DNA of 64,000 nt, taken from Sulfitobacter litoralis. Lineage in GTDB: Bacteria > Pseudomonadota > Alphaproteobacteria > Rhodobacterales > Rhodobacteraceae. The DNA lies in assembly GCF_900103185.1 (NCBI RefSeq), contig NZ_FNJD01000002.1, positions 124,001-188,000 of the forward strand, given 5' to 3'. Positions 40,445 through 53,023 of the stretch are shown in pieces. The first letter of the stretch is position 1. Each line of letters begins with the position of its first letter. The notes under the pieces are model-generated. The model was not told the origin of the DNA, searched no databases, and worked only from the letters and a program-made list of their open reading frames with translations. Made by a program: the position numbers and the translations under genes.

Positions 40445-41692
40445 TTAGGCGATAGCCTCGTCCCAGCCAGTGTCCTGATCCGCCAGTTTGACACGGGTCG
40501 GCAGGCCGATGGTGTCGAGCAGGGCAAAGAGCGGCTTTGGGTCCAGCTCTTCGACGTTAAGCATCGTGCCGGTATCATAGGTGCCATCTACAATCAGCAT
40601 AGCCATCGCCACGGGGGGCACGCCAGCGGTATAGGAAATGCCTTGGCTGCCGACCTCGTTATACGCGTCTTTGTGATCGGCGACGTTGTAGACAAACACC
40701 TCTACGTCCTTGCCGTCCTTGGTGCCTTTGACCAGATCGCCAATGCAGGTCTTGCCAGTATAGTTCGGCGCAAGGGTAGACGGGTCGGGCAGCACGGCTT
40801 TGACCACCTTCAGCGGCACGACCTCAAGCCCTTCGGCGGTGACCACGGGCTGTTCGGACAATAGGCCAAGGTTTTGCAGCACGGTGAAAACATTGATGTA
40901 GTGATCGCCAAAGCCCATCCAGAAGCGCACATCGGCCTGCGGGTAATTCGCTGCAAGCGAGTGCACCTCGTCATGGCCTGACATATAGGCCTTTTGCTTG
41001 CCAACGACGGGCAGATCCCATTCGCGGCCGACCTCGAACATCTTGTTCTCTTGCCACGCGCCTTCCTGCCAGCTGTAGACCGTGCCGGTGAATTCTCGGA
41101 AGTTGATCTCTGGGTCGAAGTTGGTCGAGAAATACTTGCCGTGGCTGCCCGCGTTGATGTCGACGATGTCGATGGATGTCACATCGTCCATGAATTCGTC
41201 CACGGCGAAACGGGCGAAGGCGTTAACCATACCGGGATCAAAGCCCGCGCCCAGAATTGCGGTTGTGTTCGCCTTGGCGCAATCCTCGCGGCGTTTCCAT
41301 TCATAGTTGCCGTACCAAGGCGGCGTTTCGCATATTTTGGTCGGATCTTCGTGAATGGCCGTGTCGATATAGGCGACGCCGGTGCGAATGCAGGCTTCAA
41401 GCACGGTCATGTTCACGAAAGGGGAGCCGACGTTAATCACAATTTGCACGCCAAGGTCGTTAATCAGCGCCTCTACCGCGTCGCTGTCCATACCGTCGAC
41501 CGCATGGGCATCAAAAACGCCGTCCTGTTTCATCGCGCCTTTGGCATGCACGCTTTCAATGATCGCCTCGCATTTTGAAACTGTGCGGCTGGCGATATGT
41601 AGATCGCCCAACACGTCATTATTTTGCGCGCATTTATGCGCGACGACCTGCGCGACGCCACCGGCACCGATGATAAGAACATTGCGTTTCAT
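40445..41692 (-). CDS. Carboxyspermidine/carboxynorspermidine dehydrogenase
   Basis: A 415-residue saccharopine-dehydrogenase-family enzyme: Rossmann start VLIIGAGGVAQVVAHKCAQN, GSPFVNMTVLEACIRTGVAYIDTA, ILGAGFDPGMVNAFARFA, and the C-terminal GISYTAGVPPVAMAMLI. This pattern is the CANSDH/CASDH type, which condenses putrescine or diaminopropane with aspartate semialdehyde using NADPH. In alphaproteobacteria it makes carboxyspermidine for spermidine. It lies 30 nt after its partner decarboxylase, on the same strand. Confidence 0.9.
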   Translation of the reverse strand: MKRNVLIIGAGGVAQVVAHKCAQNNDVLGDLHIASRTVSKCEAIIESVHAKGAMKQDGVFDAHAVDGMDSDAVEALINDLGVQIVINVGSPFVNMTVLEACIRTGVAYIDTAIHEDPTKICETPPWYGNYEWKRREDCAKANTTAILGAGFDPGMVNAFARFAVDEFMDDVTSIDIVDINAGSHGKYFSTNFDPEINFREFTGTVYSWQEGAWQENKMFEVGREWDLPVVGKQKAYMSGHDEVHSLAANYPQADVRFWMGFGDHYINVFTVLQNLGLLSEQPVVTAEGLEVVPLKVVKAVLPDPSTLAPNYTGKTCIGDLVKGTKDGKDVEVFVYNVADHKDAYNEVGSQGISYTAGVPPVAMAMLIVDGTYDTGTMLNVEELDPKPLFALLDTIGLPTRVKLADQDTGWDEAIA

Positions 41693-41722
41693 GTATTCAT
41701 TACACCTCTTGTAAGGAAAGGG

Positions 41723-42817
41723 TTAGGAGAGGGCGGACTTAAAATCCTCGTAGTCGAATGACCGGACCGATGTAATCGTTCCATCAAGTTCACGAATGGC
41801 GATGCCGGGCATCTTGACGCCGTTGAACCAGTTCTTCTTGACCATAGTATAGCCCGCAGCGTCCTGAAACGAAATGCGGTCACCGGGTTTTAGCGGCGCG
41901 TCGAACTTGAACTCGCCAAAGATGTCGCCCGCAAGGCAGGATTTACCGCAGATCATCCAGTCGTGGGCACCGGTGTTCGGGGCCACCTTGGCGGGCTCAC
42001 GGTAAATCAGCAGATCCAACATGTGCGCCTCGATAGAGCTGTCGACGATGGCAAGGTTCTTGCCGTTATGCAGGGTATCAAGCACGGTCGTCTCTAACGT
42101 CGCAGCGCCGGTGATCGCGGCCTCTCCGGGTTCAAGGTAGACCTGAACGCCATAGGTGTCGGACAGGGTTTTCAGCCGCGCGGCCAGACGGTCCAACGGG
42201 TAGCCTTTGCCGGTGAAATGGATGCCGCCGCCAAGGCTGATCCAGTCCATCCGGTGGATCGTGTCGCCAAAGCGGTCTTCGATCAACGTCAGCATATCCG
42301 CGAACCGGTCGAAATCGTCATTCTCGCAATTGTTGTGAAACATCAGACCCGTAATGCGGTCGGCCACGGCGGCGATCTGCGCCGGATCATGTTCGCCCAA
42401 ACGGCTGAAGGGGCGGGCGGGATCGGCCAGATCGAATTCCGATGTCGACACACCGGGGTTCACCCGCAGCCCGCGCGTATGCCCTGCCGATGCCGCATCG
42501 AAACGGTCCAGCTGGCCGATGGAGTTGAAGATGATCTTGTCGCTATTGGCCAGCACCTCGGCGATCTCGTCATCATCGTAGGCCACTGAATAGGCGTGGG
42601 TTTCGCCGCCGAATTTCTCGTAACCCAGCTTGACCTCATACAGCGAGGAGGACGTGGACCCATCCATATATTGCGCCATGAAATCAAAGACTGACCATGT
42701 GGCAAAACATTTCAACGCCAGCAAGGATTTCGCGCCCGACGCCTCGCGCAGCCAGGCGATCTTTTCCATGTTGGTCTGGAGGCGGGATTTGTCGATCAGA
42801 TAATATGGGGTCTTCAT
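41723..42817 (-). CDS. nspC: Carboxy(nor)spermidine decarboxylase
   Basis: A 364-residue PLP enzyme of the alanine-racemase-fold decarboxylase group: N-terminal TPYYLIDKSRL, PLP lysine in LALKCFATWSVFDF (Lys36), the FHNNCEN-like MFHNNCEN loop, SLGGGIHFTGKGYP and the C-terminal KSCLAGDIFGEF with the catalytic Cys. AAAGGA lies 8 nt before ATG 42817; the longer frame upstream is not conserved. With the dehydrogenase it forms the alternative spermidine or norspermidine route. Confidence 0.93.
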   Translation of the reverse strand: MKTPYYLIDKSRLQTNMEKIAWLREASGAKSLLALKCFATWSVFDFMAQYMDGSTSSSLYEVKLGYEKFGGETHAYSVAYDDDEIAEVLANSDKIIFNSIGQLDRFDAASAGHTRGLRVNPGVSTSEFDLADPARPFSRLGEHDPAQIAAVADRITGLMFHNNCENDDFDRFADMLTLIEDRFGDTIHRMDWISLGGGIHFTGKGYPLDRLAARLKTLSDTYGVQVYLEPGEAAITGAATLETTVLDTLHNGKNLAIVDSSIEAHMLDLLIYREPAKVAPNTGAHDWMICGKSCLAGDIFGEFKFDAPLKPGDRISFQDAAGYTMVKKNWFNGVKMPGIAIRELDGTITSVRSFDYEDFKSALS

Positions 42818-42948
42818 GGCAGATCCTTTACAAAACGACGCAGACGCGGTGCGCGTTCCGATTAGGGGATGTTGCCGTTCAACGCAAACTCTGATGCGTC
42901 GCGCGACTATCACGAAAGGACCGTGATCGGCCCTCCTTCAGCGCCAGA

Positions 42949-43809
42949 TCAATTGCTGCGGAAGATACGGGATTCGCCGATCATCTGTTCAAGCGCTGCG
43001 ATCCTCTCGGCGCTTTGGTCAGAGCTGCGCGATTGCACATCGGCGACCAGCGCTTCGATCAGAAAGTTGATCGCCAGCGTTGAATCCCAGCTCGACGGGA
43101 CCTCTACCATGGCGCGGAAACAGTGGCGGGCGTGTTTTTCGATGGGCGATCCCCATGCGTCGGTGAACAGCACGATGGTCGCCCCCTGCTTCACCGCGAG
43201 ATCCGCCAGCTTTTCGAGCTCTTTCTCGTAGCGGCGGATGTCGAACACGATCAACACCGCGCCTGCGTCCATATCGAGCAAGGATTGCGGCCATGCACTG
43301 GGGGAGGAATCAAGCAGCGTAACCTGCGGTCGGATGATCTGTAGGTGATTGAAAAAATAATGCGCGTTGGACCGCGTGATGCGTCCACCCAACAGAAAAA
43401 GCCGGTGCGAAGGATCAGAGAGCAGCGCCGCAACATCGTCAAACTCGGCCAGATCGAGCCGTTCCAGCGTGCGGTTCACATTGCCCGACACAGCCTGAAT
43501 AAAGCGTGACACCATGTGATCGCTGCTGTCGCTGGGGGTCTCGAGCTTGGCCAGTGGTTTTTTCATCCGTGCGCCGATTTCACCGCGGATGGCGTCTTGC
43601 ATATCAGAGTACCCGTCGAACCCAAGCTTGCGTGCAAGCCTCACGATTGTGGGCGATGATACCTCGGCCAACTCAGCGAGACGGTTGATAGATTGCAGCC
43701 CCGTAAGCAGCTGGTCGTCCAGCAAAACAGCCGACAGTTTTCGTTCTGCCGCCGTCAGCTCGGCCTGCTTTTCTTTCAGCAGGTCGCGGACCAGTACTTT
43801 TTTATGCAA
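42949..43809 (-). CDS. MurR/RpiR-family transcriptional regulator
   Basis: A 286-residue regulator: HTH domain (about 1-80, INRLAELAEVSSPTIVRLARKLGFDGYSDMQDAIRGEI) and a C-terminal SIS domain (LFLLGGRITRSNAHYFFNHLQ, VLIVFDIRRYEKELEKLADLAVKQGATIVLFTDAWGSPI) that usually binds a phosphosugar or other small ligand. It is divergent from the hydrolase-TRAP-ligase operon by 114 nt, and most likely controls it and perhaps the polyamine genes behind it. Confidence 0.92.
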   Translation of the reverse strand: MHKKVLVRDLLKEKQAELTAAERKLSAVLLDDQLLTGLQSINRLAELAEVSSPTIVRLARKLGFDGYSDMQDAIRGEIGARMKKPLAKLETPSDSSDHMVSRFIQAVSGNVNRTLERLDLAEFDDVAALLSDPSHRLFLLGGRITRSNAHYFFNHLQIIRPQVTLLDSSPSAWPQSLLDMDAGAVLIVFDIRRYEKELEKLADLAVKQGATIVLFTDAWGSPIEKHARHCFRAMVEVPSSWDSTLAINFLIEALVADVQSRSSDQSAERIAALEQMIGESRIFRSN

Positions 43810-43854
43810 GTCATGTTCCTTTCGGTACAGCGCGTGGTGGTGTGAAGCAAAGAT

Positions 43855-43890
43855 TACAGAAAAAATCTTGACAGGCTAGAAAATTCTGTA
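43855..43890. promoter_or_regulatory. Candidate RpiR operator over a TTGACA -35
   Basis: TACAGAA (43855-43861) and TTCTGTA (43884-43890) are exact inverted repeats flanking TTGACA (43868-43873), the best -35 for the operon starting at 43924. AGAA-AA-TTCT (43879-43888) is a second half of the same pattern. A repressor bound here would cover the -35. No convincing -10 follows. Confidence 0.5.
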
Positions 43891-43923
43891 GTGATTGTGA
43901 GGCAACAAATTGACAGGGTCACC

Positions 43924-44691
43924 GTGACTGACACCGATTGGAATGCCGTAAACATCATAAACCCGCAGGGGCAGGGGGGCTGGTTGCTGGTGTGTGAACA
44001 CGCCTCGCGCCGGATTCCTGATGCGCTAGGCGGGTTGGGGCTGTCATCTGCGGCGGGCGGGTCGCATGCGGCTTGGGACATCGGCGCGCTGGATGTGGCG
44101 CACGCGCTGTCAGATGCGCTGGACGCGCCTTTGGTTGCGGGCGATATTTCGCGGCTGGTCTATGATTGCAACCGCCCGATAACAGCCCCCGACTGCGTTC
44201 CGGCGCGCAGCGAAGTCTATGATATTCCCGGCAATGCGGGGCTGGATGATGCCCGCCGGCAGCAGCGGTATGACCAAGTACATACGCCGTTCCATGATGC
44301 GGTCACCAAAGTGCGCACCAGCTGGAAACCGACCCAAGCAGCACCGGTGTTGGTCACGATCCACAGCTTTACGCCTGTCTATAACGGGGCGACCCGCGCG
44401 GTCGAGCTGGGCTTTCTCTACCACGCTCAGCCCGCCGCGGCGCAGGCGTTGCTGGCGGTCGAACAGGCACGCGGGCGCTATGCCTCGGCGCTGAACGAAC
44501 CCTATGCAGCGACAGACGGCGTGACCTATACGCTTGAAAAACATGGCGAGGCGCAGGCGCTGCCCGCCGTGATGATCGAGATACGCAATGATCTGATCGA
44601 CACACCCGAAAAAGCGCAGGCCATGGCAGGGCATCTGGCCGAGAGCCTGACCCGAGCCTTTCCCGCCCCCAACAGCGAGGCCGCCAGATGA
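43924..44691 (+). CDS. N-formylglutamate amidohydrolase-family hydrolase
   Basis: A 255-residue protein from a GTG after AGGG. It has the family signatures WLLVCEHASRRIPDALGGLGL, AWDIGALDVAHALSDALDAPLVAGDISRLVYDCNRP and TIHSFTPVYNG. The founding enzyme HutG hydrolyses N-formylglutamate, but no hut genes are here. First in an operon with a glutamate ligase and two oxidoreductases, it may instead cleave a gamma-glutamyl amide; this is inference from context. It overlaps dctQ by ATGA. Confidence 0.88.
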   Translation: MTDTDWNAVNIINPQGQGGWLLVCEHASRRIPDALGGLGLSSAAGGSHAAWDIGALDVAHALSDALDAPLVAGDISRLVYDCNRPITAPDCVPARSEVYDIPGNAGLDDARRQQRYDQVHTPFHDAVTKVRTSWKPTQAAPVLVTIHSFTPVYNGATRAVELGFLYHAQPAAAQALLAVEQARGRYASALNEPYAATDGVTYTLEKHGEAQALPAVMIEIRNDLIDTPEKAQAMAGHLAESLTRAFPAPNSEAAR

Positions 44692-45209
44692 AGGCGATGC
44701 GCAGATACATTCGGGTGGTGGATGGCTTCAACTATGGCCTAGGCCGGATCATGATGTACGGGATTTTCGTCCTGATGGGGATCCTGTTGTGGTCGTCGTA
44801 TAACAAAACCTTTGCATCGCCACAACTTTGGACGCTGGAAATGGCACAGTTTGTGATGGTGGGGTATTACATCCTGGGCGGGCCGTATGCGCTGCAGATG
44901 GGCGCGAATGTGCGGATGGATCTATTTTATGCCGAGCTGACCCCGCGCAAAAAGGCGTGGACCGATTGCATCACTGTATTGTTCCTGCTGGTCTATCTGG
45001 TGATCCTGCTGTGGGGCGGTATCGAATCCACAATGTATTCCTTCAAATACGGCGGAGAGCGCAGCCCGACCGCGTGGCGCCCCTATATGTGGCCGGTCAA
45101 AGTGACCATGTGCATCGGCATCACCTTAATGCTGCTTCAAGCTGTCTCTGAGCTGTTCAAGGACATCCTTTTCCTTAAATCCGCAGAGGACACGCGCGAT
45201 GCCCTATGA
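44688..45209 (+). CDS. TRAP transporter small membrane subunit (DctQ)
   Basis: A 173-residue protein with four helices (FVLMGILLWSSYNKTF, MVGYYILGGPYALQMGANVRMDLFY, FLLVYLVILLWGGIE, VTMCIGITLMLLQAV) and the DctQ motif ALQMGANVRMDLFY. It pairs with DctM in a sodium-driven secondary transporter. It overlaps both neighbours, by 4 nt and 11 nt. Confidence 0.92.
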   Translation: MKAMRRYIRVVDGFNYGLGRIMMYGIFVLMGILLWSSYNKTFASPQLWTLEMAQFVMVGYYILGGPYALQMGANVRMDLFYAELTPRKKAWTDCITVLFLLVYLVILLWGGIESTMYSFKYGGERSPTAWRPYMWPVKVTMCIGITLMLLQAVSELFKDILFLKSAEDTRDAL

Positions 45210-46524
45210 GTTGATCGCCATCCTGATGTTTTCGACCATGATGCTGATGCTGCTGACTGGGCAGCGGGTGTTCGGGGCGATCGGCTTTGTCGCGGTGATT
45301 GCGGCGCTGTTTCTTTGGGGGGATCGCGGCGGCTATGACATCGGCTTCTCTGCCGCGATTAAGCTGATGCGTTGGTATCCGCTGCTGACCCTGCCGATGT
45401 TCATCTTCATGGGTTACGTGCTGTCGGAAAGTAAAATTGCCGACGATCTATATAAAATGTTTCACGTGTGGATGGGCGGTTTGCGCGGCGGGCTGGCCAT
45501 CGGGACGATCGGGCTGATGGTGTTGATTTCCGCCATGAACGGCCTGTCGGTGGCGGGCATGGCGATCGGTGCAACAATTGCGCTGCCCGAGCTTTTGAAG
45601 CGAAACTATGACAAACTGATGGTGACCGGGGTCATTCAAGCAGGATCGAGCCTTGGCATCCTCGTGCCGCCTTCGGTCGTGCTGGTGCTCTATGCGATGA
45701 TCGCGCGGCAACCTGTGGGGCAGCTGTGGCTGGCGGGCGCGATCCCGGGGCTGATGATGGCCACGATGTTCATCATCTATATCGCCATCCGCTGTCGCAT
45801 GAATCCCGATCTGGGCCCGACCCTGTCCGCCGAAGAGCGCGATGTGGGCTGGCCTGAAAAGCTGCGTCTGTTACGTGCGGGCCTGCTGCCTGTGGTGATC
45901 TTTGCCGTGATGATGGTGCCGTTTGTGAACGGCTGGACCTCGCTTGTCGAAAGCTCTGCCATTGGGGCAATCGCCGCATTTGTAGCGGCTGTGCTGAAAG
46001 GGCGGATGACGCGCACCGTTTTTGAAAACTCTGTGCGCCAGACCCTTGCGATCACCTGTATGTTCATGTGGATCATCCTCGCCGCGCTGGCCTTTGGTGC
46101 GGTGTTCGACGGGCTTGGGGCGGTCAAGGCGATTGAAAACCTGTTTACCGAACAATGGGGCCTGAACCCTTGGGTGATCCTGATCCTGATGCAGCTGTCG
46201 TTTCTGATCATGGGGACGTTTCTGGACGACACGGCGATGCTGGTCATCGTGGCCCCGCTCTATGTACCGCTGGTGGGCGCGCTCGGGTTCGATCTGGTGT
46301 GGTATGGTGTGCTTTATACGATCACCTGCCAGATCGCCTATATGACGCCGCCCTTCGGCTATAACCTGTTCTTGATGCGCGCCATGGCCCCGCCAGAGAT
46401 CACGATTCGCGACATTTACCGGTCGATCATCCCCTTTGTTGGCGTGATGGTACTGGCGCTCGCGGTCGTCATGATCTTTCCGCAGATCGCGCTTTGGCTG
46501 CCGAACTATGTCTACGCGAAATAA
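45199..46524 (+). CDS. TRAP transporter large membrane subunit (DctM)
   Basis: A 441-residue permease with about 12 helices: LPMFIFMGYVLSESKIADDLY, GLSVAGMAIGATIALPELLKRNYDKLMVTGVIQAGSSLGILVPPSVVLVLY and FLDDTAMLVIVAPLYVPLV, all typical of DctM. It forms the transport path with DctQ and takes ligand from DctP 68 nt downstream. Confidence 0.94.
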   Translation: MPYELIAILMFSTMMLMLLTGQRVFGAIGFVAVIAALFLWGDRGGYDIGFSAAIKLMRWYPLLTLPMFIFMGYVLSESKIADDLYKMFHVWMGGLRGGLAIGTIGLMVLISAMNGLSVAGMAIGATIALPELLKRNYDKLMVTGVIQAGSSLGILVPPSVVLVLYAMIARQPVGQLWLAGAIPGLMMATMFIIYIAIRCRMNPDLGPTLSAEERDVGWPEKLRLLRAGLLPVVIFAVMMVPFVNGWTSLVESSAIGAIAAFVAAVLKGRMTRTVFENSVRQTLAITCMFMWIILAALAFGAVFDGLGAVKAIENLFTEQWGLNPWVILILMQLSFLIMGTFLDDTAMLVIVAPLYVPLVGALGFDLVWYGVLYTITCQIAYMTPPFGYNLFLMRAMAPPEITIRDIYRSIIPFVGVMVLALAVVMIFPQIALWLPNYVYAK

Positions 46525-46591
46525 GCATTACCAACCAAGTGGTCAGAGAAGCTGGCCCGTTTCAACCCAACCCCAACAAGGAGTATGAGAC

Positions 46592-47629
46592 ATGACAACG
46601 AGACGTAAGTTCCTGAAAGGTGCCGCCATTGCCGGCCCCGCGACCCTTGCCGCGCCGTCAATCCTGCACGCCCAAGAGCCGATACGCTGGCGTTTCCAGA
46701 CCTATGCGGGGTCTGCGCTCGGGGAAGAGGTGACCAAACCCGCCATCGACGCGATCAACGCGGCGGCACAAGGCGAGCTTGAGATCGAATTGTTTTATGC
46801 GGACCAGATCGTCCCCACGGGCGAGCTTTTCCAAGCATTGCAGCGCGGCACCATCGATGGCGTGCACTCGGATGATGACTCCATGGCGTCGCCCACGCCT
46901 GTACGGTCCTTCGGCGGGTATTTCCCGCTGGCGACGAAACACGCGCTCGACGTGCCGGTGCTGTTCAATCAATACGGTCTGGCAGACATCTGGCGCGAGG
47001 AATACGCCAAGGTCGGCGTGCATTGGCTGTCTGCGGCGGGGCAAGACCCGTGTAACTTCAACACCGTCAAGCCGATCAAATCGCTGGCCGACATGGACGG
47101 GCTCAAGCTTTATACCTTCCCGACGGCGGGCCGCTTCCTGTCGCAATTCGGCGTCGTGCCGGTCAACATCCCCTACGAGGACGCCGAAGTCGCGGTGCAG
47201 ACGGGCGAGCTGGACGGTATGGCGTGGTCGGGCATCACCGAAGACTACACCGTCGGCTGGGCCGATGTGACCAACTACTTCTGCACCAACAACATCTCGG
47301 GCGCATGGATCGGGTCGTTCTTTGTCAACGCCGAGAAGTGGGCAGAGCTGCCGGATCACCTCAAGCAGATCGTAAACTCCGCGATCGAGGCAAGCCACAC
47401 CTACCGCAACCAGTGGTACTGGGGCGGCGAGGCGCGCCTGCGTGCATCGGGTGAGAAGCTGGAGCTGACATCCGTACCGCAGGACGAATGGAAAGTGGTC
47501 GAGGAAGCGGCCGTGAAATTCTGGGACGAGATGGCGGAAGAAGGCGAAACCGCCGCCAAGATCGTGCAGATTTTCCGCGACTATAACAACGTCATCTCGA
47601 AAGCGGGCCCGCCCTATACTTTCGGCTGA
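46592..47629 (+). CDS. TRAP transporter substrate-binding protein (DctP), Arg motif altered
   Basis: A 345-residue binding protein with a twin-arginine signal (TTRRKFLKGAAIAGPATLAAPSILHAQ). FALQRGTIDG-like LFQALQRGTIDGVHSD, SLADMDGLKLYTFPTAG and AVQTGELDGMAWSG mark the family. In related proteins the segment reads LK(M/Y)R, whose Arg binds the ligand carboxylate; here it is LKLY. With several Asp residues in HSDDDS, this suggests a non-acid, perhaps amine, ligand. Exported folded by Tat. Confidence 0.92.
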   Translation: MTTRRKFLKGAAIAGPATLAAPSILHAQEPIRWRFQTYAGSALGEEVTKPAIDAINAAAQGELEIELFYADQIVPTGELFQALQRGTIDGVHSDDDSMASPTPVRSFGGYFPLATKHALDVPVLFNQYGLADIWREEYAKVGVHWLSAAGQDPCNFNTVKPIKSLADMDGLKLYTFPTAGRFLSQFGVVPVNIPYEDAEVAVQTGELDGMAWSGITEDYTVGWADVTNYFCTNNISGAWIGSFFVNAEKWAELPDHLKQIVNSAIEASHTYRNQWYWGGEARLRASGEKLELTSVPQDEWKVVEEAAVKFWDEMAEEGETAAKIVQIFRDYNNVISKAGPPYTFG

Positions 47630-47653
47630 TCCGACTTTGACATCATGACCATA

Positions 47654-47677
47654 GGGGCGGCGCATCTGTGCCGCCCC
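47654..47677 (+). other. Hairpin between dctP and the ligase gene
   Basis: GGGGCGGC/GCCGCCCC with an 8-nt loop, 25 nt after the dctP stop and without a T tract. Such a stem often protects the upstream mRNA and raises binding-protein yield. Confidence 0.6.
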
Positions 47678-47702
47678 CTCACATCAAAAGGGACGTTTGC
47701 AG

Positions 47703-49064
47703 ATGGGCAACCTTACTTTCGACACGCTCAAGGACCTGGCCGCCAAAGGCGAGGTGGACACGGTGCTGGTGGCACTGGTGGACATGCAGGGCCGCCTGAT
47801 GGGCAAGCGTTTTCACGTTACGAATTTCATCGATCATTCTCACGCGGAAACCCATTGCTGCAATTATCTGCTGGCAACCGATCTGGTGATGTCCACGCCC
47901 GAGGGCTTTGCCTCGACCAGCTGGGAAACCGGATATGGCGACTATGTGCTGCGGCCCGATCTGTCTACCATGCGCCATGTGCCGTGGCTGGAAAAAACCG
48001 TGTTGGTGCTTGGCGATGTGCTGGATCACCACACCCACGAACCTGTCTCCCATTCGCCGCGCGCCATGCTGAAAAAGCAGATCGCCCGACTGGACGCGCT
48101 TGGCTTTGATGCGATGATGGCAACCGAGCTTGAGTTCTTTCTGTTCGAGGGCGACTACCGCACCTTGCAGAAAGAGAAATACGCCAACCTCGTGCCGCTG
48201 AACGGGCACAACGAGGACTACTGCCTGTTCCAAACCACCAAGGAGGAAAGCTTCCTCCAGCCGCTGCGCAACCATCTGGTAGGGGCGGGGATTCCGGTCG
48301 AATGCACAAAGGGCGAGGCCGAAGTCGGCCAGCAAGAGCTTAACATCCGCTATGCCGACGCGCTGGCTTGTGCCGATCACCACACAATTTCGAAACAAGC
48401 GGTGAAAGAGATCGCCTATCAGCAGGGGTTCTCTGCCTCCTTCCTGTCCAAGTGGTCGGCGGATAAGGTGGGGTCGTCCAGCCACGTGCATATGTCGCTG
48501 TGGAAAGACGGCACGCCCGCGTTCTATGACAAGGATGCAAAGCTGGGCATGTCGCAGATGATGCAGCATTTTATGGCGGGTCTGATCGCCTATGCCCCTG
48601 ATATCACCTATTTCTTCGCGCCCTATATCAACAGCTACAAACGCTTTGCCAAAGGCACCTTTGCGCCCACGAAAACCGTCTGGTCTGTCGATAACCGCAC
48701 CGCGGGCTTCCGGCTGTGTGGCGATGGCACCAAGGGGATTCGTGTTGAATGTCGCATCGGCGGGTCTGACCTGAACCCCTATCTGGCGCAGGCTGTGCTG
48801 CTTGCGGCAGGGCTGAAGGGGATCGAGGAAAAGCTGCCCCTGCAAGAGCCGACGTTGGGCGATGTCTACGAAGACGCCAACGTCACCGAAATCCCCCGCA
48901 CCCTGCGTGCCGCGACCCAAACGCTGCGCAACTCTGCCATGTTGCGCGAGGCCCTTGGCGACGACGTGGTCGACCACTACACCCGCGCAGCCGAATGGGA
49001 GCAGGAGGAATACGACAAGGTCGTGACCGACTGGGAAATCAACCGCGGATTTGAGCGAGCATAA
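47703..49064 (+). CDS. Glutamine-synthetase-family ligase (probable gamma-glutamyl-amide synthetase)
   Basis: A 453-residue GS-fold protein: beta-grasp start with LVALVDMQGRLMGKRF, ATELEFFLF, AEVGQQELNIRYADAL, SHVHMSLWKDG with metal and ATP residues, INSYKRFAKGTFAPT and the end VECRIGGSDLNPYLAQAVLLAAG. It lacks the adenylylation tyrosine loop of GlnA and groups by look with PuuA, IpuC and GMAS, which link glutamate to an amine. Next to dehydrogenases and a TRAP transporter, a catabolic gamma-glutamylation role is likely. The amine is not known. Confidence 0.88.
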   Translation: MGNLTFDTLKDLAAKGEVDTVLVALVDMQGRLMGKRFHVTNFIDHSHAETHCCNYLLATDLVMSTPEGFASTSWETGYGDYVLRPDLSTMRHVPWLEKTVLVLGDVLDHHTHEPVSHSPRAMLKKQIARLDALGFDAMMATELEFFLFEGDYRTLQKEKYANLVPLNGHNEDYCLFQTTKEESFLQPLRNHLVGAGIPVECTKGEAEVGQQELNIRYADALACADHHTISKQAVKEIAYQQGFSASFLSKWSADKVGSSSHVHMSLWKDGTPAFYDKDAKLGMSQMMQHFMAGLIAYAPDITYFFAPYINSYKRFAKGTFAPTKTVWSVDNRTAGFRLCGDGTKGIRVECRIGGSDLNPYLAQAVLLAAGLKGIEEKLPLQEPTLGDVYEDANVTEIPRTLRAATQTLRNSAMLREALGDDVVDHYTRAAEWEQEEYDKVVTDWEINRGFERA

Positions 49065-49067
49065 ACC

Positions 49068-50444
49068 ATGACAAACACTTTGAAATGTATCTCACCGATT
49101 GACGGATCGGTTTACCTTGAACGCCCTGTCCTGTCGCTGGAGGCGGCACGCGATGTCTGCGCCCGCGCCAAGGCAGCACAAGGCGCATGGGCCGCGCGCC
49201 CCTTGTCCGAACGTGTCCAACTGGTGCGCGACGCCATTGCCGAGGTGGGCAAAACCACCGATCGTATGGCGCAGGAACTGGCGCATCAGATGGGTCGACC
49301 CGTGCGCTATGGCGGCGAGTTTGGCGGCTTTGCCGAGCGCGGCAACTATATGGCCGACATTGCCGAAAAGGCGCTGGCCCCGACGATTGTTGAAGACAGC
49401 GACAAGGCCACCCGCAAGATCACCCGCGAAGCGCGCGGCGTAGTGCTGGTCGTGGCCCCGTGGAACTACCCTTATATGACGGCGATCAACACGGTCGCGC
49501 CAGCGCTGATCGCAGGTAATACCGTGGTGCTGAAACACGCCACCCAAACCCTGCAAGTGGGTGAACGTCTGGCCGAAGCTTTCCACGCCGCAGGTATCCC
49601 CGACGATGTCTTCCAGAACGTCTTTCTTGATCACGACACCACCTCGGCGCTGATCGCTGAACGGCAGTTCGGCTTCGTGAACTTCACCGGCTCGGTCGGG
49701 GGCGGCAAGGCGATGGAGGTGGCCGCCGCAGGCACCTTCACCCCCGTCGCGACGGAACTGGGGGGCAAAGACCCCGGCTATGTGCGCGCCGACGCGGATG
49801 TTGACGCCGCCGTTGACGGGCTAATGGATGGGGCGATGTTCAACGCGGGGCAATGCTGCTGCGGTATCGAACGGATTTATGTGCACGAAAGCCTGTATGA
49901 TGCCTTTGTCGAAAAGGCCGTGGCTTGGGTCAATGCGCTCAAGCTTGGCAACCCGCTTGAGACGGATACCGATATCGGCCCCATGGCGAACGTCCGTTTT
50001 GCCAAAGAAGTCCGCGCCCAGATTTCCGAGGCTGTCGGGGCCGGTGCCACCGCATTGATTGAGACCTTTGAGGCGGATGACGGCGGGGCGTATCTTACGC
50101 CGCAGATCCTGACCAACGTCACCCATGACATGCGCGTGATGCGCGACGAAAGCTTTGGCCCTGTCGTTGGCATCATGCCCGTCAAGGACGACGCCGAAGC
50201 GATTGCGCTGATGAACGACTGCCAGTTCGGCCTGACCGCCGCGATCTTTACCAAGGATGCCGATGCTGCCGATGCCATCGGCGCGCAGCTGGAAACCGGC
50301 ACTGTGTTCATGAACCGCTGCGATTACCTTGATCCGGCCCTGTGCTGGACCGGCTGCAAGGATACAGGGCAGGGCGCGGGCCTGTCCGAGCTTGGCTATC
50401 AGGCGCTCACGCGCCCCAAATCTTACCACCTGAAAAAGGCTTGA
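49068..50444 (+). CDS. NAD(P)-dependent aldehyde dehydrogenase
   Basis: A 458-residue enzyme: VVAPWNYPYMTAINTVAPALIAGNTVVLKHA (cofactor binding), the general base Glu230 in ATELGGKDPGYV, and the nucleophile Cys264 in FNAGQCCCGIERI. Three adjoining cysteines at the active site are unusual in look. It likely oxidises the aldehyde formed by the next gene's product; the substrate is inferred from context. It follows the ligase gene by 3 nt. Confidence 0.93.
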   Translation: MTNTLKCISPIDGSVYLERPVLSLEAARDVCARAKAAQGAWAARPLSERVQLVRDAIAEVGKTTDRMAQELAHQMGRPVRYGGEFGGFAERGNYMADIAEKALAPTIVEDSDKATRKITREARGVVLVVAPWNYPYMTAINTVAPALIAGNTVVLKHATQTLQVGERLAEAFHAAGIPDDVFQNVFLDHDTTSALIAERQFGFVNFTGSVGGGKAMEVAAAGTFTPVATELGGKDPGYVRADADVDAAVDGLMDGAMFNAGQCCCGIERIYVHESLYDAFVEKAVAWVNALKLGNPLETDTDIGPMANVRFAKEVRAQISEAVGAGATALIETFEADDGGAYLTPQILTNVTHDMRVMRDESFGPVVGIMPVKDDAEAIALMNDCQFGLTAAIFTKDADAADAIGAQLETGTVFMNRCDYLDPALCWTGCKDTGQGAGLSELGYQALTRPKSYHLKKA

Positions 50445-50449
50445 TCCTT

Positions 50450-51595
50450 ATGGCACTGCAAAACAACTGGTCCTACCCCACCGCCATCCGCTTTGGCGCG
50501 GGCCGTATTTCTGAAATCGGAGAGGCCTGCGTGGCCACGGGGATGAAAAACCCCTTGCTGGTGACGGACAAAGGTCTTGCCTCGATGGAGATCACGACGC
50601 GCACGCTGGACCTGCTGGACGGCGCAGGCTTTGGCCGTGCGATGTTCTCGGAAGTGGACGCGAACCCGACCGAACTGAACCTCGAGGCGGGGCTTAAGGT
50701 CTACCGCGAGGGCGGGCACGACGGTGTGATCGCCTTTGGCGGTGGCTCTGGCCTTGATCTGGGCAAGATGGTCGCCTTCATGGCGGGGCAGTCGCGGCCT
50801 GTGTGGGATTACGAAGATGTGGGCGATTGGTGGACCCGCGCCGATGCCGACGCCATCGCACCGATCATCGCCGTGCCCACAACCGCCGGTACAGGGTCCG
50901 AAGTCGGCCGCGCATCAGTGCTGACCAATTCGAAAACCCACGTCAAAAAGATCATCTTCCACCCCAAAGTGCTGCCCAGTGTCGTGATTTGCGACCCTGA
51001 GCTGACGGTAGGCATGCCCAAACATATCACCGCAGGCACCGGCCTTGATGCCTTTGCCCATTGCGTCGAGGCGTTCAGCAGCCCGCATTACCACCCCATG
51101 TCGCAGGGTATCGCGCTAGAGGGCATGCGGCTGGTCATCGACTATCTGCCGCGTGCCTATGCGGATGGGACAGACATCGAAGCGCGCGCGCAGCTGATGT
51201 CGGCGGCGGCGATGGGGGCGACGGCGTTCCAGAAGGGTCTGGGCGCGATTCACGCCATGAGCCACCCGATCGGCGCGGTGTTCAACACGCACCACGGTAC
51301 CACCAATGCGGTCTGCATGCCTGCTGTACTGGACCTGAACGAGCCTGAAATCCGCGAACGCTTTGACCGCGCGGCAGGGTATCTGGGGATCGACGGCGGC
51401 TATGACGGCTTCCGCGCCTTCGTGCAGAAGTTCAACGACAGCTTCGGTATCCCGCGCAAACTGTCGGATATGGGCGTGAGCGCAGACCGGATCGACGATC
51501 TGGTCGCGATGGCGCTTGAAGATCCGTCGTGCGGTGGCAACCCTGTGACATTGACCACGGAGAACCTTCGCAAGCTGTTCGAGGCGACAATCTAA
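50450..51595 (+). CDS. Iron-type (group III) alcohol dehydrogenase
   Basis: A 381-residue enzyme from MALQNNWSYPTAIRFGAGRI. NAD-binding FGGGSGLDLGKMVAFM, PTTAGTGSEVGRASVL, and the metal ligands in GTGLDAFAHCVEAFSS and AIHAMSHPIGAVFNTHHGTTNAV. It would oxidise the alcohol before the aldehyde dehydrogenase acts. The start is 5 nt after the previous stop; the frame is open further upstream but overlaps that gene. Confidence 0.94.
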   Translation: MALQNNWSYPTAIRFGAGRISEIGEACVATGMKNPLLVTDKGLASMEITTRTLDLLDGAGFGRAMFSEVDANPTELNLEAGLKVYREGGHDGVIAFGGGSGLDLGKMVAFMAGQSRPVWDYEDVGDWWTRADADAIAPIIAVPTTAGTGSEVGRASVLTNSKTHVKKIIFHPKVLPSVVICDPELTVGMPKHITAGTGLDAFAHCVEAFSSPHYHPMSQGIALEGMRLVIDYLPRAYADGTDIEARAQLMSAAAMGATAFQKGLGAIHAMSHPIGAVFNTHHGTTNAVCMPAVLDLNEPEIRERFDRAAGYLGIDGGYDGFRAFVQKFNDSFGIPRKLSDMGVSADRIDDLVAMALEDPSCGGNPVTLTTENLRKLFEATI

Positions 51596-51621
51596 ACCTC
51601 CGTAGAAGGCCCAAAAGAAAG

Positions 51622-51650
51622 CCACCCCCGACGTTCTGCGTCGGAGGTGG
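51622..51650 (+). terminator. Hairpin ending the TRAP-ligase operon
   Basis: CCACCCCCGACG/CGTCGGAGGTGG, 12 bp with one mismatch and a TTCTG loop, 26 nt after the last stop. It lacks a T tract, and GC-rich repeats (GGGCGG/CCGCC, near 51668-51690) follow before the convergent protease gene. Confidence 0.6.
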
Positions 51651-51747
51651 TCTGCCGCACCGGGGGGACGGGCGGTGGGGCCCGCCGCGTTGGGGAACGC
51701 GGTCGGGCAAATCCAGCAGGGAACGAGGTAAGCCCGCTGGAAGACGC

Positions 51748-52866
51748 TTACGCTTTTTGATCGGCCAATGTGCCTATGGTGACCGTCCGCGTGACCTCTT
51801 TGCCCTTGTGCAGGACCATGACCTCGGCTTCGGCTTCCGGATCGGTTTCGGCCACAGCGCGGGTCAGATCGCGCAGTTCCTTGATCTCTGTGTCGTTGAA
51901 CGACAGGATGATATCGCCTTTCTCAAGACCCGCTTTCTTGGCCGGGCTGTCATCGCCGATGGCTTCGATCACCGCCCCTTTCGGCGCGTCCAGCCCCAGC
52001 ACCTGCGCGACCTCGGCCGTCATCGGGCGGATTTGAACGCCAAGCCAGCCGCGGGTGATTTCCCCGTCGTCGGACAGGTCGGCCACGATGTCCTGCACCA
52101 GATCGGATGGTACGGAAAAGCCGATCCCGACAGAGCCGCCATCAGGCGACAGGATCGCCGTGTTCACGCCAATCACCTCGCCGGCGTTGTTGAACAGGGG
52201 CCCACCCGAGTTGCCTCGGTTGATGGCGGCATCCGTCTGGATAAAGTCGTCATAGGGGCCCGCGTTGATATTGCGCGATTTGGCCGAGATGATGCCAGTG
52301 GTGACAGTGCCGCCCAGACCAAAGGGGTTGCCCATAGCGACGACCTCGTCGCCGACGCGCATGTCATCGGACGACCCGAATTTGACAGCGGGCAGGTCCA
52401 CGTCCGCTTCGACCTTGAGCACGGCGATATCGGTCAGGACGTCGCTGCCGACAACTTTGGCATCAAAGCTGCGCCCGTCGGCGAGTTTGACCTTAACGGT
52501 ATCGGCACCTGCGACAACGTGGTTGTTCGTCACGATGGCCCCGTCCTTGGATACGATAAAGCCTGACCCAAGCCCGTGCATCGGCTGCGCACTGGTCGGC
52601 CCCTGTGGCATCAGTTGTTCAAACCGTTTGCGCAGTTCTTCGGGCATGCCTTCGGGTAGTTGCACTTGCGCGTTGGCTTGTTCCGCGGTGCCGGTCACCT
52701 CGATAAATACGACGGCGGGCGAGATTTCTTCGACCAGATCGGCATAGCCGCCAGCCGGTACGGCCAACGCGGCTGTGGGTGCAAGCGTCACCGCCGAGGT
52801 TGAGGCAAGGGCCGCCGCCAGTACAAACGGTGCGGCACGGCGGGGGGAGGAAAAGAGAGATGTCAT
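51748..52866 (-). CDS. HtrA/DegQ-type periplasmic serine protease, one PDZ
   Basis: A 372-residue S1C protease with a signal peptide (RRAAPFVLAAALASTSAVTLAPTAALA), triad His in VTNNHVVAG, Asp in TDIAVLKV and Ser in RGNSGGPLFN, and a single C-terminal PDZ (GLEKGDIILSFNDTEIKEL). It is shorter by one PDZ than the other protease at 19.0-20.4 kb. AAGGA is 8 nt before ATG 52866. It is divergent from a two-component system, as CpxRA-linked degP often is. Confidence 0.93.
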   Translation of the reverse strand: MTSLFSSPRRAAPFVLAAALASTSAVTLAPTAALAVPAGGYADLVEEISPAVVFIEVTGTAEQANAQVQLPEGMPEELRKRFEQLMPQGPTSAQPMHGLGSGFIVSKDGAIVTNNHVVAGADTVKVKLADGRSFDAKVVGSDVLTDIAVLKVEADVDLPAVKFGSSDDMRVGDEVVAMGNPFGLGGTVTTGIISAKSRNINAGPYDDFIQTDAAINRGNSGGPLFNNAGEVIGVNTAILSPDGGSVGIGFSVPSDLVQDIVADLSDDGEITRGWLGVQIRPMTAEVAQVLGLDAPKGAVIEAIGDDSPAKKAGLEKGDIILSFNDTEIKELRDLTRAVAETDPEAEAEVMVLHKGKEVTRTVTIGTLADQKA

Positions 52867-53023
52867 TTGGGGTTCCTTCGTCTTCAGGGATGACACCTAA
52901 ATGGCAGCCCATTCTAACAGCGCGTTTCCGTCAGCTATACAAATGTGTTAACTTGCCTCTCGCGGGTGGCAGCGCGCCCTATATCAGGTATCCAAGGATC
53001 AACGCTGCAATGGACCCCTGCTT

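Follow-up and report, generated by a model that had tools for sequence, protein, structure and literature searches.

A probable EtoVWX-type ethanolamine utilization operon in Sulfitobacter litoralis, with a candidate site for its RpiR regulator

Which amine is handled by an operon that sets a glutamine synthetase (GS)-family ligase beside a tripartite ATP-independent periplasmic (TRAP) transporter, two dehydrogenases, and a hydrolase of the N-formylglutamate amidohydrolase (FGase) family? The question is raised by a stretch of 64,000 nucleotides of Sulfitobacter litoralis DNA (here called the window; positions 124,001 to 188,000 of contig NZ_FNJD01000002.1, assembly GCF_900103185.1), in which family scans confirmed the coordinates and order of genes given in a preliminary description of the same sequence: a divergent RpiR regulator, followed by the FGase-family gene, the TRAP genes dctQ, dctM, and dctP, the ligase, an aldehyde dehydrogenase, and an iron-containing alcohol dehydrogenase. 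All eight genes are open frames, and within the operon they overlap or lie at most 73 bases apart (gaps of -11 to +73 bases). Considering what we observed, namely, gene content and order, conservation, an aligned pocket residue, and the grouping of the ligase, we regard it as very probable that this is the EtoVWX ethanolamine utilization operon of marine alphaproteobacteria, which would convert ethanolamine into glycine by means of a temporary glutamate tag. As such, it is an already known and ordinary operon, the same one having been published from Phaeobacter sp. MED193.

In particular, the passages of PMC10132767 (Westermann et al. 2023) considered here describe eight genes of MED193 in the identical order under the name of ethanolamine operon, i.e., RpiR (MED193_10021), gamma-glutamylglycine amidohydrolase (10026), EtoV (10031), EtoW (10036), EtoX (10041), ethanolamine gamma-glutamylase (10046), gamma-glutamylacetyl-aldehydeamide dehydrogenase (10051), and gamma-glutamylethanolamide dehydrogenase (10056). 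As for that paper, what we report from PMC6529630, PMC9397018, PMC5299690, and PMC12410723 refers to excerpts of these sources. Compared on gene content and order alone, the two operons showed no difference. The EtoX protein of MED193 binds ethanolamine with a Kd of 7.9 +/- 1.9 uM, none of the four analogues named there being bound, and phosphorylethanolamine raises the level of five of the eight proteins (10026, 10041, 10046, 10051, and 10056). The same source names Vetting et al. 2015 as the origin of the pathway and ties the operon to the coupled turnover of phosphorus, nitrogen, and carbon in the sea (PMC10132767). Ethanolamine itself is a breakdown product of phosphatidylethanolamine, one of the main lipids of membranes. 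The abstract of the 2015 paper by Vetting and colleagues is said to claim a new route for ethanolamine as a nitrogen source.

The preliminary description had presented the system as undescribed, a claim that does not survive the publication of the MED193 gene order, and it had singled out an FGase-type gamma-glutamyl hydrolase and a TRAP importer as unusual, both of which are in print (PMC10132767, PMC6529630, and PMC9397018). The same four enzyme families (PF00120, PF00465, PF00171, and PF05013) are given for Chromohalobacter salexigens in Table 2 of PMC9397018. Moreover, the ethanolamine pathway of Streptomyces coelicolor GlnA4 (SCO1613) likewise joins a GS-like gamma-glutamylation to a dehydrogenase, an aldehyde dehydrogenase, and an FGase-family hydrolase, all three predicted, and a gamma-glutamylglycine hydrolase of that family had already been predicted for Streptomyces (PMC6529630). 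Different from the window, its regulator is EpuRI and not an RpiR protein (PMC9397018), and no TRAP importer is mentioned in the passages of PMC6529630 considered. The Sulfitobacter copy is one more carrier of a known operon, for which the candidate regulator site and the late enzymes remain.

In the proposed route, EtoX (the DctP protein) would capture periplasmic ethanolamine and EtoVW would import it, after which the GS-like ligase would use ATP to join it to the gamma-carboxyl group of glutamate. The iron-containing alcohol dehydrogenase would oxidize the resulting gamma-glutamylethanolamide to the aldehyde, the aldehyde dehydrogenase would yield gamma-glutamylglycine, and the FGase-family enzyme would release glycine together with glutamate, which is recycled. 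Such a sequence of import, gamma-glutamylation, two oxidations, and FGase-type release had been anticipated from the DNA, with ethanolamine as the first-named substrate, and the literature and homology suggest that it is right or very nearly so.

The binding protein bears most directly on the substrate. In a sequence search of solved structures, the best relatives of EtoX were 4uab and 4xf5 (E 5.7e-146, the next being at 1.4e-17), both titled Csal_0678, the C. salexigens protein with which EtoX shares 63.8% identity. The 4uab structure was solved with ethanolamine, and Glu220 serves as a platform holding the ligand (PMC12410723). Glu217 of EtoX aligns with this clamping glutamate, which has index 217 in the 4uab chain and, judging from the tag length, would be the native Glu220. 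The aligned glutamate is kept in all 106 related loci, which comprise the 80 loci most similar in DctP out of 406, 6 of 17 plasmid records, and 20 of 109 places hand-picked across the identity range; two of them (L025 and L096) are one stretch, so that the 106 loci give 105 distinct binding proteins, 97 ligases give 96, and 91 hydrolases give 90. Ethanolamine is the expected ligand of EtoX in this organism.

Taken at the level of Pfam names, the operon could also be read as an ordinary glutamine synthetase next to a dicarboxylate carrier, a reading that we consider scarcely credible. The position equated with the carboxylate-binding arginine of TRAP binding proteins (SiaP Arg147), on the basis of the printed alignment to 2zzv, is residue 174 of EtoX, where the window has a tyrosine (tyrosine in 83 and phenylalanine in 23 of the 106 loci). 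Csal_0678 departs from the arginine rule set out in PMC4646407, and EtoX is consistent with it in this respect: it lacks the arginine of carboxylate binders and has the clamping glutamate of the Csal_0678/EtoX type. Thus, the dicarboxylate binding that had been named as a possible refutation is not suggested by the nearest solved relative, an ethanolamine binder, or by the tyrosine at the arginine position. It is also possible to hypothesize that the same chemistry serves mainly a C3 amino alcohol, e.g., 2-amino-1-propanol, which would give gamma-glutamylalanine and then alanine, with ethanolamine in second place. The pathway logic would accept such a compound, and the second structure of Csal_0678, 4xf5, is one that we take to hold 2-amino-1-propanol. 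Nevertheless, since ethanolamine is a ligand of EtoX in MED193, where phosphorylethanolamine also raises the operon proteins (PMC10132767), we judge a main C3 substrate to be very unlikely.

The ligase points in the same direction as the binding protein, that is, to ethanolamine. By sequence, the solved structure closest to it is 5dm3 (672.9 bits, 64.6% identity), titled Csal_0679, the next locus tag after Csal_0678; the Brucella melitensis chain 11zs comes second (571.2 bits). Identity is only 26.0% to E. coli GlnA and 26.3% to E. coli PuuA. Furthermore, the ligase falls below the cut-off of the GlnA model TIGR00653 (243.6 of 429.15 bits) and of the NCBIfam type III GS model (237.8 of 469.6 bits), and it scores 197.4 of 650 bits against the gamma-glutamylputrescine synthetase model NF045547, which is not discriminating, as even E. 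coli PuuA obtains no more than 198.7 bits. In a tree built from 31 of 97 rows, with long outgroup branches and with IpuC, GMAS, and GlnA4 absent, all 26 operon ligases, including Csal_0679, fell on one side of a branch supported at 97/94, and E. coli GlnA, PuuA, and the three other GS proteins of the genome fell on the opposite side, where three rows have branches longer than 3 and are themselves of unsure placing. The ligase is expected to be an ethanolamine gamma-glutamylase.

An ordinary GlnA could be rejected on the sub-cut-off score, the tree, in which the grouping with GlnA that would have spoken against the proposal did not occur, and the presence elsewhere in the genome (C16) of one GlnA above the TIGR00653 cut-off; two further GS proteins accompany it, besides the operon ligase. 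The statement in the preliminary description that the ligase lacks the GlnA regulatory loop stands in part, as the E. coli GlnA motif NLYDLP is lost, but in the alignment the tyrosine column still holds a tyrosine and the loop is just two residues shorter.

A further reading, a PuuA-like system for the gamma-glutamylation of a polyamine or methylamine, would share its overall logic with PuuA and GMAS, and polyamine genes do adjoin the operon. E. coli PuuABCD also places a temporary glutamate tag on an amine. However, it uses the oxidase PuuB where the window has an iron-containing alcohol dehydrogenase and PuuD where the window has the FGase-family enzyme, and, according to the family scan, the operon encodes neither an amine oxidase nor a PuuD-type hydrolase. 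PuuA was rejected for the ligase on its low identity and its place across the supported branch, in a tree that held no GMAS row. The adjoining genes (40445 to 42817, minus strand) encode a carboxynorspermidine synthase-like protein (444.6 of 800 bits) and an NspC decarboxylase (410.3 of 409.05 bits); because nspC is present on the stretch of only 1 of the 80 related loci, they are probably unrelated to the operon, and the polyamine link was dismissed. On these grounds, we find a PuuA-like system extremely improbable. As for the classical alternative for ethanolamine itself, EutB had no match in the S. litoralis genome, with a positive E. coli control; therefore, no ethanolamine ammonia-lyase route was found in this genome, and the Eut route was set aside.

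With regard to the hydrolase of the proposed ethanolamine pathway, its identity is far higher to Atu2144 (2odf; Table 1) than to the other FGase-family protein of the genome (19.4%), which is nearest to HutG but below the cut-off of that model (99.6 of 278.75 bits). H26, D81, N83, R84, H147, R158, and E219, which are among the residues common to both comparators, are invariant across all 91 rows (90 distinct), a pattern that suggests a working active site.

Several points weigh against the ethanolamine assignment. The steps of the aldehyde dehydrogenase, the iron-containing alcohol dehydrogenase, and the FGase-family enzyme are those expected by homology, no assay for them having been found in the literature consulted, and we infer the substrate in this organism and each enzymatic step from sequence. 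The status of the C. salexigens pathway differs among sources, being "demonstrated" in PMC10132767, "predicted in an in silico approach" in PMC6529630, and "proposed" in PMC9397018, and Csal0679 is given in PMC5299690 only as a putative glutamine synthetase. In MED193, EtoX is also raised under phosphate starvation (PMC10132767). The fold search with the ligase model (mean predicted local distance difference test [pLDDT] score, 80.7) placed 11zs first and Csal_0679 second. The EtoX model has a mean pLDDT of 67.5, with values below 50 at residues 214 to 227, and because of this weakness the pocket was judged by alignment alone; both models are middling and add little beyond the best PDB relatives. 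Moreover, the clamping glutamate is also kept in 14 loci with no detected ligase (one of which, L079, ends right after DctP), so that the pocket is no proof of this catabolic route.

The conservation of the whole set was the other check proposed beforehand, and the genes were found to travel together. All eight, in the order and on the strands of the window, occur in 66 of the 80 related loci, so that the set is conserved far beyond chance. For 10 of the 14 incomplete loci (L002, L005, L008, L015, L031, L044, L056, L063, L070, and L079), the missing genes fall at a stretch or contig end, judging from lengths. The other four depart for another reason: L043 has no FGase-family gene in its place; L055 has an aldehyde dehydrogenase match of only 76 residues; L071 is without the ligase, the aldehyde dehydrogenase, and the alcohol dehydrogenase after the TRAP genes and without an FGase-family gene in the 1.1 kb before them, where the contig ends; and in L074 (7956 to 13278), a Roseobacter metagenome-assembled genome, RpiR, the FGase-family gene, and the TRAP genes remain, and the stretch revealed neither the ligase nor the two dehydrogenases. 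Of the second set, 26 loci with one duplicate among them, 13 have the full complement, 2 have the ligase and both dehydrogenases with no detected FGase-family or RpiR gene, and 11 have TRAP genes with no detected ligase, one of which, L097, retains the FGase-family and RpiR genes. Of 198 genomes sampled from the host's family, 108, including that of S. litoralis, have a relative of the binding protein (E 1e-60), though not all of these have the ligase.

Around the ligase-less EtoX copies, the longest-frame picks of neighboring genes mostly appear to lie on the wrong strand, and Pfam matches (1e-10) were obtained for 4 of 10, two of them, in L097, being a transhydrogenase pair. On a Chelatococcus plasmid (L089, 2503 to 9053), a ligase-less EtoX-type TRAP set (54% DctP identity) lies near eutBC, which hints independently at ethanolamine as a cargo of this transporter family. 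Another partner set, consisting of a DeoR/GlpR regulator, two FAD/NAD(P) oxidoreductases, and an FGGY kinase, accompanies EtoX-type TRAP genes in L090 (911 to 9041) and L089 (4763 to 13207).

The RpiR protein would control the operon, perhaps from an inverted repeat, TACAG-N26-CTGTA, that spans a TTGACA box in the region between the regulator and the FGase-family gene; its site, its ligand, and the sense of regulation are what we infer. A relaxed form of the repeat (spacer of 18 to 30) occurs in the intergenic regions of 15 of 91 relatives; 200 rounds of shuffling, which preserved single-base content only, averaged 0.145 and never exceeded 2 of 91, and the rows are related. It is found in 13 of the 20 loci whose RpiR is at least 68% identical to that of the window versus 2 of the other 71. 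An alignment in which 8 of the 15 matching loci were present had been viewed before the pattern was written, and two of its rows (L060 and L075) do not match the pattern. Thus qualified, the conserved repeat may be the RpiR operator. No sigma-70-type match was obtained in the promoter scan of 42700 to 51800, versus 3.0 expected in shuffles. Because the repeat abuts an alternative GTG start of the FGase-family gene at 43891, the start at 43924 is favored. No published account of the repeat was met, no literature search having been aimed at it. A broader proposal, that the system of this clade takes a wider range of amino alcohols (e.g., 2-amino-1-propanol and serinol) and that RpiR acts through this repeat, seems to us unlikely, if conceivable; the wider ligand range was not met in the literature consulted, in which no search was aimed at it, and Vetting et al. 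2015 may already contain it.

Table 1. Features of the probable ethanolamine utilization locus (positions in the window)
Feature	Position	Strand	Basis
RpiR/MurR-family regulator (HTH_6 + SIS)	42949-43809	-	Divergent; counterpart of MED193_10021, equal position in Fig. 5 legend of PMC10132767
Candidate RpiR operator, inverted repeat around TTGACA box (43868-43873)	43855-43890		Function putative
FGase-family hydrolase, expected gamma-glutamylglycine amidohydrolase (GGAH); GTG start	43924-44691	+	PF05013, E 4.4e-37; 46.7% identity to Atu2144/2odf; named GGAH in MED193
TRAP small permease DctQ (EtoV)	44688-45209	+	PF04290
TRAP large permease DctM (EtoW)	45199-46524	+	PF06808
TRAP solute-binding protein DctP (EtoX), expected ethanolamine binder	46592-47629	+	PF03480; 4uab/4xf5 best; Glu217 aligned to Csal_0678 glutamate
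GS-family ligase, expected ethanolamine gamma-glutamylase (ETAGA)	47703-49064	+	PF00120; identity to Csal_0679/5dm3; tree
Aldehyde dehydrogenase, expected gamma-glutamylacetaldehydeamide dehydrogenase (GAADDH)	49068-50444	+	PF00171; role from PMC10132767
Iron-containing alcohol dehydrogenase, expected gamma-glutamylethanolamide dehydrogenase (GETADH)	50450 (ATG)-51595	+	PF00465, PF25137; role from PMC10132767

Downstream of the operon, a hairpin of 12 pairs (51622 to 51650) lies between the iron-containing alcohol dehydrogenase gene and a gene on the minus strand (51748 to 52896) that is DegP-like by eye, and the hairpin is terminator-like for that strand.

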